Shown piece after piece: positions 13,732 through 54,053 of a stretch of DNA of 64,000 bases (positions are counted from its first letter, which is position 1; every line of letters begins with the position of its first letter). Source of the DNA: Fibrobacter succinogenes (GTDB lineage: Bacteria; Fibrobacterota; Fibrobacteria; Fibrobacterales; Fibrobacteraceae); contig CACWNW010000002.1 of the NCBI GenBank assembly GCA_902762305.1, positions 1 through 64,000 of the forward strand, read 5' to 3'. The notes beneath the pieces were generated by a model that did not search any database, was not told where the DNA came from, and saw only the letters and a program-made list of their open reading frames with translations. Position numbers and translations under genes: made by a program.

Positions 13732-13859
13732 GGGGCCTCTATGGGTTTCTTAAGAAAAATAATAAAAATGAGCCTCCAGCCACTATTCATACCCCCCCTT
13801 TTTTCGTATTTTAGGAATAAGAAACGTTGACAACAATCAAATAAAATGGAGTATCGACA

Positions 13860-14549
13860 ATGAAGACACGTATTCCTGAAGCATTGATCATCGCCATAGC
13901 CATAATCGCATTTGGCGCTTTTGTCTATTGCGGCATAAACAAGGCAAGTGACCGCGGCCGAGTCGTGCACGTGCGCGGCCTCGCCGAAATGGAAGTCCCT
14001 GCAGACAAGGTATTCTGGAACATCAGCTACGGGCTGCTCGGAAACGACATGAAGGAACTCTTCAAGGACATAGCTACGAACAACAACATCATCAAGCAGT
14101 TCCTCGTCGACAACGGCATTGCGGCAGAAGATATCACCTTCAACCTGCCCAGCATAAACGACAACGAAGCGAATCCCTTCATGAAAAACAACTCCAGGTT
14201 CCGCTATTCCAGCAACACCAACCTTACCATCGCGACAAATAAAGTAGAGGCCGTCCGCGACCTCCAGCAAAAAATGGTCAACCTGATAGACATGGGCATA
14301 GTCATCAACAACAACTACGCCTCCTATGAATTCACGGGACTCAACGACATAAAGCCGCAGATGATAGAAAGCGCGACCAAGAACGCCCGCGCAGCAGCAG
14401 AAAAATTCGCAAAGGATTCCGAAAGCAAGCTCGGCAAGATCCGGAACGCCTCGCAGGGAGTATTCTCCATCGACAACCGCGACGAGAACACGCCCTATAT
14501 CAAGAAAATCCGAGTCGTGACAACCGTCGACTTCGCGCTCGAAGACTGA
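13860..14549 (+). CDS. SIMPL domain (DUF541) protein
   Basis: 229 residues with an N-terminal membrane anchor or signal (about 8-26) followed by a SIMPL-type domain: a VRGLAEMEVPADKVFW start, a central segment of alternating strands and helices, and a conserved-looking VVTTVDFAL end. Relatives lie in the periplasm and are of unclear role; some bind or respond to stress on proteins. It is divergently arranged to dut and has GGAG before the ATG. Confidence 0.75.
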   Translation: MKTRIPEALIIAIAIIAFGAFVYCGINKASDRGRVVHVRGLAEMEVPADKVFWNISYGLLGNDMKELFKDIATNNNIIKQFLVDNGIAAEDITFNLPSINDNEANPFMKNNSRFRYSSNTNLTIATNKVEAVRDLQQKMVNLIDMGIVINNNYASYEFTGLNDIKPQMIESATKNARAAAEKFAKDSESKLGKIRNASQGVFSIDNRDENTPYIKKIRVVTTVDFALED

Positions 14550-14583
14550 TTAGAGCAACTTTAGCGGCTGGTGTTCACCCGCC

Positions 14584-14931
14584 TCAAATAACCGCGTCGA
14601 TTTTTTCGTTCCAGTGGTCCGTAGTTTCACGGGCCACTTCGTTTCCGCAATCGTAGATGCACAAGAAGCAGATTTCGTTCACGACCTCGTAATCGGAGCC
14701 GCCGTTAAACACGTTGGCGTTGCCGTATTCTTCGCGGTCTTTCCACAGATAGACTTTGCAGGCGTTCTGTGCAGAAACCGATTTGCAATAGGCGGAGAGT
14801 ATGTCTTCGGTGAGGTCGGCCGCAGTCCCGGCACCCGCAGCAACAGGCGACGCGAGGACTTCGGCCAGCGTTATGACGCGCGTGCCATCCTTGGCCAAGA
14901 TTCGCCCTGCGATGTTGAATTCGACTTCCAT
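14584..14931 (-). CDS. Hypothetical protein
   Basis: 115 residues, not recognised. It has no signal peptide or membrane helix. The composition is mixed acidic, and there are four cysteines in the second half, including CLCIYDC-like spacing within FLCIYDC. It lies 42 bases downstream of trmJ in the same direction and may be co-transcribed. Confidence 0.5.
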   Translation of the reverse strand: MEVEFNIAGRILAKDGTRVITLAEVLASPVAAGAGTAADLTEDILSAYCKSVSAQNACKVYLWKDREEYGNANVFNGGSDYEVVNEICFLCIYDCGNEVARETTDHWNEKIDAVI

Positions 14932-18140: not shown

Positions 18141-18663
18141 AAAAAAAATGTTCTGTCCGGAATGCGGCGAAGCCTACAATTTCACTGAGCCCCACTGCCC
18201 TTGGTGCGGGGCGCCAAAGCCGCATAAAGAGTCTTCAAACGAAAAAGAAGATATTGTCGAGGAAGAAAAAATCCCGCTCAAGGCCCGACTGTATTCCAAG
18301 CGTTACGTCGCAGTGCTTATTTTGTTCATCATCGGAATAATATGCATTACCGTAATTGCGAGAGATGCATTTATTGCTGAGATACAGGACAAGTTTGAAT
18401 TTAATTCCAATTACTTCATTGCATTCGTTTTCTTATTAAGCCTTCCCTTTTTAGGGGTCTTGGGTTATATGTACGACAGCGAGCAAAAAAAGAATCCCCG
18501 GGAGGATTCTAAAAACGATCTAGTTTCTATGAATAAAACAATGTGGAATTTCTATTATAAAGCTCCATTTAAGTACGGTCACCGTTGTATAAAAGAGCGC
18601 AACTACAAGGGCCTAGTTCTTTTTGCGGCATTCATCGCAGCACTTGCATTTATATTTATCTAA
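18124..18663 (+). CDS. Zinc-ribbon membrane protein
   Basis: 179 residues. An N-terminal double-Cys zinc ribbon (CPEC at about 13-16 and CPWC at about 27-30) is followed by a charged linker and membrane helices at about 60-80, 97-117 and 160-178. Such ribbon-plus-helix proteins are common and poorly understood. The ribosome site and start lie in the repeated hairpin at 18105-18140, which may control translation. Confidence 0.7.
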   Translation: MSRGKTKKMFCPECGEAYNFTEPHCPWCGAPKPHKESSNEKEDIVEEEKIPLKARLYSKRYVAVLILFIIGIICITVIARDAFIAEIQDKFEFNSNYFIAFVFLLSLPFLGVLGYMYDSEQKKNPREDSKNDLVSMNKTMWNFYYKAPFKYGHRCIKERNYKGLVLFAAFIAALAFIFI

Positions 18664-18665
18664 GC

Positions 18666-19289
18666 CTATTTATATTTTCGGCTATAGTTCTCGAAGACGA
18701 TATTCACGTTAAAATACTCATTCCGCTCATTGCCTTCGGAATCGACGACTTCCATGAGGTCGCAAGTATTGTCGCCATCGCTTACCGTCTGCTGGCGTTT
18801 GAGTTTCCAGCCCATTATCCGCATCACGAAATATTCCTCCTCGACATCGATAACAATCCTCCCTTCCCGGCAATTCTTTCCGGAACCGCTTTGCCCGATA
18901 GAGCGCAAGAGCCCGAGTTCAATATCGAGATGGCGTTTTGACTCGACAGAGTCCCCCAGCGCCTCCGACGCCCACGAAAGCATCTTGTGCGCCGTCATGT
19001 TGAGGTAATTTATGTCTAGAATGGACTTGGCCAGTTTCTTGACCTTTGCGTAATCTTTATCGCTAGCAGCGGCATTCATTTTTTTGTTCATTTCGTCAAT
19101 CTTGCTCTGTTTGCGTTTCACGTACCAAGACGTCCGAGCGCAATTCTGGCGAAGAGCGGCATAGTCCACAGCCGTCTCCCCAGCCTTTACTTTGTTCAGA
19201 ATGCCAGAACATGTCTTTTCGTATTCGTCCGCATAGGACGTTGCAGCCCAAAACAGGGCTGCAATAAGTGTCAGGGCTAGGAGTTTCAT
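18666..19289 (-). CDS. Exported DUF4919-like protein
   Basis: 207 residues with a signal peptide (MKLLALTLIAALFWAATSYA). The mature part begins with a helical TPR-like half containing VDYAALRQNCA, then NMTAHKMLSWASEALGD, and a C-terminal beta-rich half ending YFNVNIVFENYSRKYK. The order (a yaaLR segment, then a Y(F)NV end) resembles DUF4919 proteins of the Bacteroidetes/Fibrobacter group. The function is unknown; it is probably periplasmic. Confidence 0.65.
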   Translation of the reverse strand: MKLLALTLIAALFWAATSYADEYEKTCSGILNKVKAGETAVDYAALRQNCARTSWYVKRKQSKIDEMNKKMNAAASDKDYAKVKKLAKSILDINYLNMTAHKMLSWASEALGDSVESKRHLDIELGLLRSIGQSGSGKNCREGRIVIDVEEEYFVMRIMGWKLKRQQTVSDGDNTCDLMEVVDSEGNERNEYFNVNIVFENYSRKYK

Positions 19290-35901: not shown

Positions 35902-35933
35902 AGCTGTTTTGGCTGACCAAAACAGCTTTTTTT
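35902..35933 (+). terminator. metK terminator that contains one arm of the paired repeat
   Basis: An 11-bp perfect stem AGCTGTTTTGG/CCAAAACAGCT with loop CTGA, then TTTTTT. The inner part is arm 1 of the repeat unit at 35908-35951. Confidence 0.85.
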
Positions 35934-35951
35934 GTGTTTTAGTCAGCCAAA
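35908..35951. repeat. Paired-arm repeat, unit 1
   Basis: Arm TTTGGCTGACCAAA, 16-bp spacer, arm TTTAGTCAGCCAAA. Arm 1 lies inside the metK terminator. Confidence 0.85.
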
Positions 35952-36023
35952 AAACGAACGGCCCGCCTTGCGGCCCCCAAAAAGCGGTTTCCCGCGGCTA
36001 TTCCGCATTTAATTTGTATGCAA

Positions 36024-36067
36024 AATGACTGACTAGAATGCAATTTTTCACAATTTAGTCAGCCATT
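36024..36067. repeat. Paired-arm repeat, unit 2
   Basis: Arm AATGACTGACTAGA, 16-bp spacer, arm TTTAGTCAGCCATT. The arms match each other at 12 of 14 positions. Confidence 0.75.
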
Positions 36068-51255: not shown

Positions 51256-52533
51256 ATGTACCAGTTTATCGTTCCGCAAGTCAAGAAGCCCCTGGACGGG
51301 GAAGTAGAAATTTCCGGTGCGAAGAACGCCGTGCTCGCCGTGATGGCAGCAGCCCTCCTCGCCGACGGAGTCTCCGAAATAACGAACGTCCCTCACCTGA
51401 AGGACATGAAGACGATGAGTGACGTGTTGCGCGTCATCGGCTGCCGCATCAGCGGCGAAGCGCATTGCTTAAAGATTGACACCCGCGGTGCCGACCACCT
51501 GGAAGCGCCCTACGAACTCGTGAAGACCATGCGTGCAAGCTTTTACGTGCTCGGCCCTCTCGTTGCCCGCTTCGGCCGCTGCCGCGTCTCGCTCCCCGGC
51601 GGATGCGCCTGGGGCCCGCGCCCTGTCGATTTGCACCTGAAGGGGCTCGAGGCGCTTGGCGCAAAGATTACCCTTACCCGCGGTTACGTGGAAGCCACCT
51701 GCGACGGGCGACTCCCCGGCGGTACATTCCATTTCCCGATTTCTAGCGTTGGCGCCACGGTGAACGTGCTTATGGCGGCTACGCTCGCCAAGGGCACCAG
51801 CGTGCTGCAGAATGCGGCGCTCGAACCCGAAATCGACAACCTGGTGGATTTCCTCGTCTCGATGGGCGCCAAGATTCAGGGCCGCGGCACGCGCACCTTG
51901 ACGGTGCAGGGCGTAGAGGCTCTACGCCCTGGTAATGGCTTTACCATCCCCGACCGCATCGAGGCCGGCACATTCCTTTGCGGAGCCGCCATTACGCGTG
52001 GCCGCGTGCGGGTGAACAAAATCATTCCCGAACACATTGCCTCCACGCTCGACGCCTTCCGCGACATGAACTGCAAAGTGACTGTCGGGCCGGACTGGGC
52101 CGAAGTCGATGCCCGCGGGCAAGAACTCAAGCCCATTACCATCCAGACGCTCCCCTTCCCGGGCTACCCCACCGACATGCAGGCTCCCCTCATGGCAACC
52201 CTGCTTTCCGTGCCGGGCAACAGCGTCATTCAGGACACCGTCTACAACGACCGCTTCAAGCATGTGGCCGAAATGGAACGCCTGGGAGCAAGCATCACTC
52301 TCAGCGGGAACACCGCGACCATCAAGGGCGGGCTTCCGCTCGAAGGCGCCGAAGTGATGGGTTCCGACCTCCGCGCTAGTGCAGCGCTTGTGCTCGCAGC
52401 GCTCATTGCCGAAGGCGAAACCAAGATTAGCCGCATCTACCACCTCGACCGCGGTTACGAGGATTTCGAAGCCAAGATGGCAAAACTCGGTGCAGAAGTG
52501 CAGCGCGTCGTCATCGATGCCGACGAACCATAA
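51256..52533 (+). CDS. murA: UDP-N-acetylglucosamine 1-carboxyvinyltransferase MurA
   Basis: First committed step of peptidoglycan synthesis: transfer of enolpyruvate from PEP. The 425-residue enzyme has SGAKNAVLAVMAA, the catalytic Cys in LPGGCAWGPRPVDLH (E. coli Cys115), SVGATVNVLMAA, the substrate-binding DRIEAGTFLC and FPTD-like GYPTDMQAPLMA. Cys at this position predicts fosfomycin binding. It lies on the plus strand after the GYF/RDD gene, with a short gap. Confidence 0.96.
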   Translation: MYQFIVPQVKKPLDGEVEISGAKNAVLAVMAAALLADGVSEITNVPHLKDMKTMSDVLRVIGCRISGEAHCLKIDTRGADHLEAPYELVKTMRASFYVLGPLVARFGRCRVSLPGGCAWGPRPVDLHLKGLEALGAKITLTRGYVEATCDGRLPGGTFHFPISSVGATVNVLMAATLAKGTSVLQNAALEPEIDNLVDFLVSMGAKIQGRGTRTLTVQGVEALRPGNGFTIPDRIEAGTFLCGAAITRGRVRVNKIIPEHIASTLDAFRDMNCKVTVGPDWAEVDARGQELKPITIQTLPFPGYPTDMQAPLMATLLSVPGNSVIQDTVYNDRFKHVAEMERLGASITLSGNTATIKGGLPLEGAEVMGSDLRASAALVLAALIAEGETKISRIYHLDRGYEDFEAKMAKLGAEVQRVVIDADEP

Positions 52534-52685
52534 CGATAGCGGGTGCAAAGCCCGCTAATTTTTTGCAGGAAGCGCGGAGGACGAGAGAAATGCGCCCCTA
52601 TGCAAGCGTAAACGGCTATCGCGAATGACGCGCGGGGAAAGATGCGCGGGCCAAATCATGGTGTTTTGAAAGCGAAATCCCGTAT

Positions 52686-52729
52686 TTTGGCTGACTAAAG
52701 TTCAATTTTCAGCGATTTGGTCTGCCAAA
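52686..52729. repeat. Paired-arm repeat, unit 3
   Basis: Arm TTTGGCTGACTAAA, 16-bp spacer, arm TTTGGTCTGCCAAA. Confidence 0.85.
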
Positions 52730-52770
52730 TTTTACTTTATCCGTAACAGATTTAGGTGAGCCGAGGGTCA

Positions 52771-52814
52771 TTTGGCTGACTAAGTTCCCGTTTTATGCGA
52801 TTTAGTCAGCCACA
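52771..52814. repeat. Paired-arm repeat, unit 4
   Basis: Arm TTTGGCTGACTAAG, 16-bp spacer, arm TTTAGTCAGCCACA. Confidence 0.85.
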
Positions 52815-52876
52815 AAAGCCAAAATCAACCATCCGCAATGTAGAAATACACCCCATTCTTGTTACTTTATTCACAA

Positions 52877-52920
52877 ATTGGCTGACTAAAACGGCACTTT
52901 CTTCAATTTAGTCTGCCAAA
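52877..52920. repeat. Paired-arm repeat, unit 5
   Basis: Arm ATTGGCTGACTAAA, 16-bp spacer, arm TTTAGTCTGCCAAA. Confidence 0.85.
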
Positions 52921-53111
52921 AAGCAAAAATCAGCCCCCAAAAAGCCCCTATTAGCCCCGAAAAAGAGCGAATCCCGCGCAAATCAGGTCCGAAAAACTCT
53001 AGATTCCCGAAATTCGGCCCGCGGCAATGTCAAACCCGCAAAGGCAGAGCCAACCCCGCAAAAGCAGCACCCCTCCCGAAGCAGCGCCAAACCCGCAAAA
53101 AACATCCCACA

Positions 53112-53139
53112 AAAAAATCCGGCGGTTTTCCCGTCGGAC
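53112..53139 (-). terminator. Terminator of the Tol-Pal operon
   Basis: On the minus strand TCCGACGG, loop GAAAA, CCGCCGGA (one mismatch), then seven T. It follows cpoB. Confidence 0.75.
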
Positions 53140-53162
53140 TTCTTTCTCAAAGCTCTTTCCGG

Positions 53163-54053
53163 TTATTTTGCAGCAGGCGCATGCACCGCGGGCACGCAAG
53201 CCTCCACCTTTTCGCCGGCAGCAGTCTTCTCTTCCTTCTCCAGGATTTCCTGCAGGATTTCGGCGGACTGTTCGAACTCGCCCGTCTTTTCACAGGATTT
53301 CTTCGAGAGGAGTTTCTGGAGGAACTGCTTCTGCGACTGGATATCGCATTCCTCGCCATAGAGATTCGCAAGCTTGAAAATAGAAGGACAAGACTTTGCA
53401 CCGTCAGGGAAGGTTTCCGACAGGTTCGTAAAGATTTTCTTCGCCTTATCCCTCTGGTTCACCTCGATTAGGCAGAGGCCCATCCAGTAGAGAGAGTTCT
53501 CGGCAAGTTCACCGGTTTTCATTTGCTCATAAACCTGCTTGAAGCCCTTGAACGCGAGCTTGTATTCGCCACTATGGAAATCGGAGCGCGCCGTATTGAA
53601 GGTCGCTTCGGCTTCCACCAGTTTTTCGGCTTCGCGTTCCAGGCTGTCGAGCGAGATCGGCGCCTGCGGAGCACCGCTCACCACGACCTTCTTCGCGAGA
53701 ATCTTGTCGGACTTCCCGAGCAGCATGTCCAAACGGTAGATGATTTCTTCCTGTCTGGAGTCGTTGCGTTCGGACTCATCCGAGACACGGCGCGAAAGCA
53801 TCGTGATTTCGGCCTGCATGCGCTTCTGCGCCACAGCCGAAGCCACCAGTTCCGCCTTGAGGGAGTCAACACGCTTGCGGAGCTGCTTGTTGTCCGAGCG
53901 AAGCTTATGCATTGCGGAATCAAGATTTCCCTTCACGGAAACCTGCACGTCCGTACCGACGTTTCTCATTTCCTCGGTGCGAAGCATCGTAATCCTGGAG
54001 CACCCGACAAGCGCGACGGCAATCGAGAGCATTCCTATAGCAAGTTTATTCAT
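53163..54053 (-). CDS. cpoB: CpoB/YbgF-like lipoprotein of the Tol-Pal operon
   Basis: 296 residues with a lipoprotein signal (VALVGC) and a coiled-coil segment (about 40-110). TPR-like repeats follow (about 140-230: AEATFNTARSDFHSGEYKLAFKGFKQVY, AENSLYWMGLCLIEVNQRDKAKKIF), as in CpoB, which coordinates outer-membrane constriction with PBP activity. It is the last gene of the Tol-Pal operon and ends at a terminator. The C-terminus has Cys/Glu-rich extra sequence, unlike E. coli CpoB. Confidence 0.8.
   Translation of the reverse strand: MNKLAIGMLSIAVALVGCSRITMLRTEEMRNVGTDVQVSVKGNLDSAMHKLRSDNKQLRKRVDSLKAELVASAVAQKRMQAEITMLSRRVSDESERNDSRQEEIIYRLDMLLGKSDKILAKKVVVSGAPQAPISLDSLEREAEKLVEAEATFNTARSDFHSGEYKLAFKGFKQVYEQMKTGELAENSLYWMGLCLIEVNQRDKAKKIFTNLSETFPDGAKSCPSIFKLANLYGEECDIQSQKQFLQKLLSKKSCEKTGEFEQSAEILQEILEKEEKTAAGEKVEACVPAVHAPAAK

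Follow-up and report, generated by a model that had tools for sequence, protein, structure and literature searches.

The locus raises the question of what three interrupted palindromes, set at regular steps in a gap without genes, are for: sites for a DNA-binding protein, RNA with repeated hairpins, or an accumulation of mobile elements, the three possibilities offered in the preliminary description. In the window, i.e. the whole 64,000-nucleotide stretch of Fibrobacter succinogenes DNA that was analysed, the cluster (element B) consists of 40-bp units of the form TGGCTGACTAAA-N16-TTTAGTCAGCCA: U1 at 52688-52727 (12-nt arm, 16-bp spacer, 12-nt arm), U2 at 52773-52812 and U3 at 52879-52918, all on the + strand. 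The steps of 85 bp and then 106 bp between unit starts and the exact 16-bp spacers were confirmed as first described. Two accessory motifs accompany the units on the same strand, m1 (TTACTTTATCCGTAA, 52732-52746), which lies 4 bp to the right of U1, and m2 (GTTACTTTATTCACAAA, 52861-52877). The gap that holds the element and its skewed flanks is indeed free of genes and measures 629 bp (52534-53162, unstranded). It is enclosed by a convergent pair of genes, both outside the element: on the left a gene that we take, from its translation, to be murA (51256-52533, + strand), with a close homologue in 40 of the 41 genus genomes searched, and on the right a presumably TPR/YbgF-like gene, so labelled from its translation alone (53163-54053, - strand). 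The “decayed arm” reported near 52751 (TTTAGGTGAGCC) is weak, with nothing corresponding seen at its position in the other copies compared, and the T-rich spacer centres are a property of the window's arm family but not of every other arm family. The first two units of the preliminary description, at 35910-35949 and 36026-36065 (both +), form element A, in which a U2-like unit is followed by m2 (TTAATTTGTATGCAAAA, 36009-36025, +) and U3, and U1 is missing.

The cluster belongs to a population of elements with the same arms, here called family 1. Full units with up to three mismatches occur at 47 places in the 3.6-Mb genome, and a chance origin was rejected, the reversed control pattern giving 0 matches. 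A looser scan of the window and 16 fetched stretches, allowing up to 8 mismatches of 24, found 59 units in 21 clusters, 17 with three units and four with two. In one of the latter the scan overlooked the middle unit, whose spacer is 17 bp long, two have no middle unit, and the fourth is element A. When the copies are all turned to a common orientation, the parts follow in the order U1, m1, U2, m2, U3, with m1 (TTASTTTGTATGTAA-like) beginning 4-5 bp after U1, m2 (GTTACTTTGTTCNNAAA-like) at a constant distance before U3 in 21 aligned copies, and spacings that are usually 74-96 bp from U1 to U2 and 106-137 bp from U2 to U3. The copies align at about 65-82% across the element with ragged ends, the conserved stretch running approximately from U1 to U3, and the closest pair (G_C8a and H_C8b) is 82% identical over 359 bp. 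The idea of a mobile-element accumulation is partly right, but the thing dispersed is the whole three-unit element and not the single unit. Of the marks of a classical IS or MITE, neither a target-site duplication nor a fixed insertion boundary was found in the family-1 copies or in the orthologous gaps of relatives. With gene orientations taken from a simple codon-usage caller rather than curated annotation, 11 elements lie in convergent gaps, 8 in tandem gaps and 1 in a divergent gap, and one of the 21 is unclassifiable; the same caller reports no genes over 7 kb between elements G and H, where it has probably missed some. As a separate matter, ordinary gene promoters are not supported as an explanation of m1 and m2, since TTASTTTGT occurs twice in sense and three times in antisense orientation in 54 upstream regions of this genome.

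The arms are palindromic and the elements tend to stand after genes, as would be expected of transcribed hairpins, whether an RNA element or terminators. The covariance check that had been proposed for the units speaks against this. At the variable positions the two arms of one unit differ about as often as independence predicts across the 59 units: matched arm pairs number 32 at position 1 against 38.1 expected, 34 at position 5 against 34.4, and 29 at position 9 against 31.8. Arm substitutions at these positions go uncompensated, and such independent variation is in keeping with duplex DNA bound by a symmetric protein, but not with an RNA that folds. Moreover, a cmscan search of the window against Rfam at the gathering score gave no structured RNA apart from a tRNA. 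The spacing between units also has no reason in RNA: a common period of about 10.45 bp (R 0.92, the best of the scanned range) runs through the 38 family-1 spacings, and the units therefore lie on one face of the helix. We regard RNA hairpins as hardly credible at this locus, and the sequence variation argues for protein sites on duplex DNA in their place. Half-site positions 2, 4, 6, 8 and 10 are identical in 118 of 118 half-sites, a constancy somewhat overstated because units were chosen by similarity, and spacers average 47% identity. Constant half-sites within strongly diverged copies suggest dispersed sites under selection or conversion rather than dead debris.

A candidate for the protein is provided by a gene that we call the partner gene. 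It was discovered because elements of different arm families adjoin it, so that it emerged as DNA shared between loci; Pfam searching of the neighbours of family-1 elements had on its own given nothing, as these are mostly housekeeping genes. The partner gene of family 1 lies on contig C20 of this genome at 18176-19225 (L036:3777-4826), between element Q (C20:17454-17683) and element R (C20:19585-19815), which share one orientation; it is the left neighbour of R. Partner genes encode proteins of about 280 amino acids for which Pfam and NCBIfam hold no family match, two of them having no Pfam match below E 0.09. Searching with m2 revealed that this genome also contains elements that share the layout but differ in their arms, each next to a partner homologue of its own: TTGGGGATTAAA arms at C13:996-1250, with the gene at 1369-2247 (L106), and TTGGGTACCAAA arms at C13:14.8-15.05 kb, with the gene at 13816-14706 (L107). 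With helical phasing, independently varying half-sites and a linked partner gene, the suggestion of an array for a DNA-binding protein is strongly supported. Units with yet other arms (GGGGCGTATAAA) were seen about 3 kb from element G (L028:1-200, contig C8 from 62500), and in L233 of Fibrobacter succinogenes RUG11683 these arms recur upstream of the partner gene. In the family-1 partner protein, about 55 low-complexity residues are inserted in frame between conserved motifs of the C-terminal domain, and some homologues have a gap near this place.

The preliminary description looked to relatives for conservation of arms and spacing, and here the two part ways: the arms themselves are found in 0 of 79 other genus genomes, but layout and phasing are kept genus-wide, and in two further phyla, with other arms. 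The window's arms were likewise absent from the species-genome contigs and viral contigs searched, a set that possibly does not include the window's own genome. A palindrome scan of the close relative G045 found another element of this layout with TTACGGACTAAA arms; at L071:9380-9660 of that genome, a triad with these arms is followed by a single half unit. A covariance model of m2 plus U3, built from 12 sequences of three arm families, has matches at E<=0.05 in 48 of 80 genus genomes and none in the other 32, many of these genomes being drafts. Many of the 30 loci fetched with the model carry further arm families, and a comparison of these shows arms that often agree in their inner part (about AYYAAA) and diverge in the outer part. 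The partner protein is also encoded in 48 of the 80 genomes: 41 have both model match and protein, 7 the element only, 7 the protein only and 25 neither (Fisher P 1.8e-8, related genomes not being independent). The element-only genomes include G079, with 24 units in an assembly that is 72% complete, and the near-complete G075.

Searching a genome collection identified 572 relatives of the partner protein, the best 80 of which come from Fibrobacter, Treponema and other Spirochaetes, and Lachnospiraceae and other Clostridia. Fib_succ_major genes, together with the named relatives, place the window's genome in Fibrobacter. Homologues are preceded by 2 to 11 palindromes, each about 40 bp long, whose arms are specific to the gene. 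Under one scoring rule, applied to loci with at least 500 bp of upstream DNA and leaving aside family 1 itself, a phased array lies upstream of the gene at 83 of 102 homologue loci in Fibrobacter, Treponema and Clostridia; the other 19 genes have no upstream array by this rule. None of 102 dinucleotide shuffles satisfied the rule; of 97 downstream windows 9 did so, several of them with the upstream arms. Because two search routes overlap and the 102 loci are not all independent, phasing was assessed on 63 distinct spacing patterns, whose 157 spacings peak at about 63.5, 74, 84.5, 95, 105.5 bp and so on, with a period of about 10.55-10.6 bp (R 0.89; nominal P near 5e-54 at 10.5). At 10 of 84 loci additional units with the same arms lie beyond the upstream array, in most cases on the downstream side of the gene. 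Treponema bryantii has units with these arms at two places only, so dispersal on a wide scale may be peculiar to Fibrobacter.

The arms go with one half of the protein. After exclusion of loci without a scored array and removal of proteins with N-terminal domains at least 85% identical, which reduced 84 loci to 59, arm similarity correlates weakly with N-domain similarity (Spearman 0.15), compared with 0.10 for the C-terminal domain. In partial permutation tests on these 59 non-redundant loci, the N-domain retains its association given the C-domain (P 0.002), and the C-domain given the N-domain has P 0.124. Two near domain swaps agree with this: L146 and L147 have C-domains that are 99% identical and N-domains at 48%, L154 and L158 have 93% and 43%, and in both pairs the arms are different.

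The structure predicted from 72 sequences (mean pLDDT 94.4, pTM 0.79) has an N-terminal part made of a helix, a beta hairpin and a long helix, followed by an alpha/beta domain. Foldseek gave nothing in the PDB at E<=0.001, its weak matches including several endonucleases, and a sequence search of the PDB found no relative (best E 0.24). With a second aligner, residues 138-275 come nearest to the catalytic domain of the homing endonuclease I-Bth0305I (3r3p; 88 residues, 2.6 A) and to TnsA (118 residues, 3.9 A), both at a middling Z of 8.3, followed by Bax1, Vsr and VRR_NUC proteins. The VIA-align list holds no RAYT-type fold, an absence that carries no weight. E169, D204, E219 and H220 are invariant in the 72 sequences, and the lysine usual in the PD-(D/E)XK motif is not evident in the alignment. 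On the model, the C-terminal half looks like a nuclease with a PD-(D/E)XK-like predicted fold. The alignment to I-Bth0305I, an enzyme of EDxHD type, could go with selfish spread; however, the site that is likely recognised lies beside the gene itself and not in an empty target, and we saw no intron, intein or cut coding target. The likeness to Tn7 extends to multiple phased sites and to the loci with same-arm units beyond the upstream array, but no other transposition genes were recognised among the scanned neighbours of elements, no target duplication was found, and dispersed copies stand without any gene. PADLOC PDC-S68, a candidate anti-phage protein with models of about 1200 amino acids, matches the C-terminal ~120 residues of the partner protein at its own C-terminus (E down to 6e-27); only this domain is shared, the rest of PDC-S68 being absent here.

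Elements come and go at orthologous loci. In G045, whose murA is 94.3% identical to that of the window at the DNA level and 84.5% at third positions, the gap beside murA is about 135 bp long, versus 629 bp in the window, and holds no element. The gap of element I measures 192 bp in G045, again with the element absent, versus 587 bp here, and at the metK locus of G045 another gene takes the place of the element. A different possibility is that the elements help to organise the chromosome, as insulators or as nucleoid or segregation sites, and that the protein binding them merely happens to belong to the partner family. About 20 dispersed intergenic copies, often in convergent gaps, with constrained half-sites and phased complexes, would suit such a role, but 32 of 80 genus genomes are without a match to the model, and several arm families are found together in one genome, two of them seen only beside their own gene. 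We consider this role distinctly improbable.

Of two related arm types, ATGCTACTAAA (16-bp spacers) and ATGCTACCAAA (17-bp spacers), a genome generally has almost only one. G076, G077 and G090 have 23, 21 and 18 units of the former type and 2, 0 and 2 of the latter, whereas G053, G087, G079 and G043 have 49, 38, 24 and 10 of the latter and 6, 2, 0 and 0 of the former; G006 has 8 and 28, respectively, and neither type is found in the window's genome or G045. At one locus with similar flanks in five species, all three units match the arm type and spacer length of their own genome, the copy in G077 having undergone some decay, and the same locus in G001 and G075 has other sequence in the gap and no such element. 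All three units at this locus have switched arm type together.

One could also picture an operator and its regulon without any mobility, in which a catalytically dead repressor uses the upstream array for autoregulation and has the dispersed triads as its regulatory sites. The position of the array directly upstream of the gene, same-face spacing suited to cooperative repression, half-sites constrained at dispersed copies and the lack of an evident catalytic lysine of the usual kind are all compatible with this. However, 11 of the 20 classifiable elements lie in convergent gaps with no promoter to control, the neighbours scanned around family-1 elements are mostly unrelated housekeeping genes, and there is the turnover between close relatives. 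This explanation is unlikely, if less so than chromosome-organising sites.

The flanks of the elements have a further regularity. In all 21 dispersed family-1 copies the left flank exceeds the right in top-strand GC skew, regardless of the direction of neighbouring genes, and control gaps have no such difference. The skew peaks in the first 40 bp (+0.31 and -0.29) and dies away past 160 bp; the T/A skew follows a less regular pattern. Exposure of 3'-ended strands to cytosine deamination at a repeated break would fit the mirror-image pattern, and a composition inherent to the element itself fits as well.

We think it probable that the window cluster is one of 21 copies of a site in a system of sites and nuclease-like protein that resembles REPIN-RAYT and acts on duplex DNA with an unrelated protein. 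In this system the triad would be the cognate site of the protein encoded at C20:18176-19225, with the variable N-terminal domain reading the outer part of each arm and one dimer binding each 40-bp palindrome. A single complex could then be built from three dimers that share a face of the helix, with m1 and m2 as accessory contacts. The array beside the gene might serve self-control or be an origin of copying, and triads away from the gene may be sites that the protein keeps occupying. Gene and site would coevolve, such that when the reading domain changes the arms change together genome-wide, and dispersed copies would be maintained or multiplied in intergenic positions in a way similar to REPINs and their RAYT. 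In view of the nuclease-like C-domain, cutting followed by break repair is the favoured route by which copies may be gained and kept alike.

As described in PMC8049555 and PMC3116915, REPINs are inverted repeats that form hairpins and have variable spacers; one linked transposase copies them, and they coevolve with it. Compared with that description, the elements here likewise have inverted arms around a highly variable spacer and form intergenic copy populations; distinct clusters stand beside distinct single genes, and the sites diversify along with the proteins. Both systems have intergenic palindromes whose spacers vary and which cluster next to a cognate gene. Nevertheless, since the protein is unrelated and the arms are not hairpin-like, we do not count the system as a member of REPIN-RAYT. 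The partner protein has no match to a Y1 (IS200-like) transposase and is predicted to have a PD-(D/E)XK-like fold, the arms of the 59 units lack hairpin covariation, the units form sets in helical phase that include accessory motifs, and gene-side arrays with hypervariable arms occur in three phyla. More tentatively, and with less confidence than in the narrower reading, we propose an undescribed class of gene and site in at least three phyla, in which a PD-(D/E)XK-like protein with an exchangeable N-domain is paired with phased hypervariable arrays; genome-wide matched sites would be repeatedly cut or unwound, giving rise to the skew, and the system would spread by break repair as an equivalent of REPIN-RAYT on duplex DNA. 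Within the literature covered, which leaves out subscription journals and bioRxiv, we provisionally found no description of the elements or the partner protein.

A widespread uncharacterised protein family thus arrives with its own DNA sites visible in sequence, and natural domain swaps indicate which half of the protein goes with site choice, so that sequence recognition and the upkeep of dispersed sites are directly testable. If the proteins cut, they would be a source of modular site-specific nucleases. Aside from this system, several genus genomes contain many copies of another dispersed repeat, a short one of about 40 bp (GTCAT...CGGGCATC-like), e.g. at L249:1504-1549 in G076.
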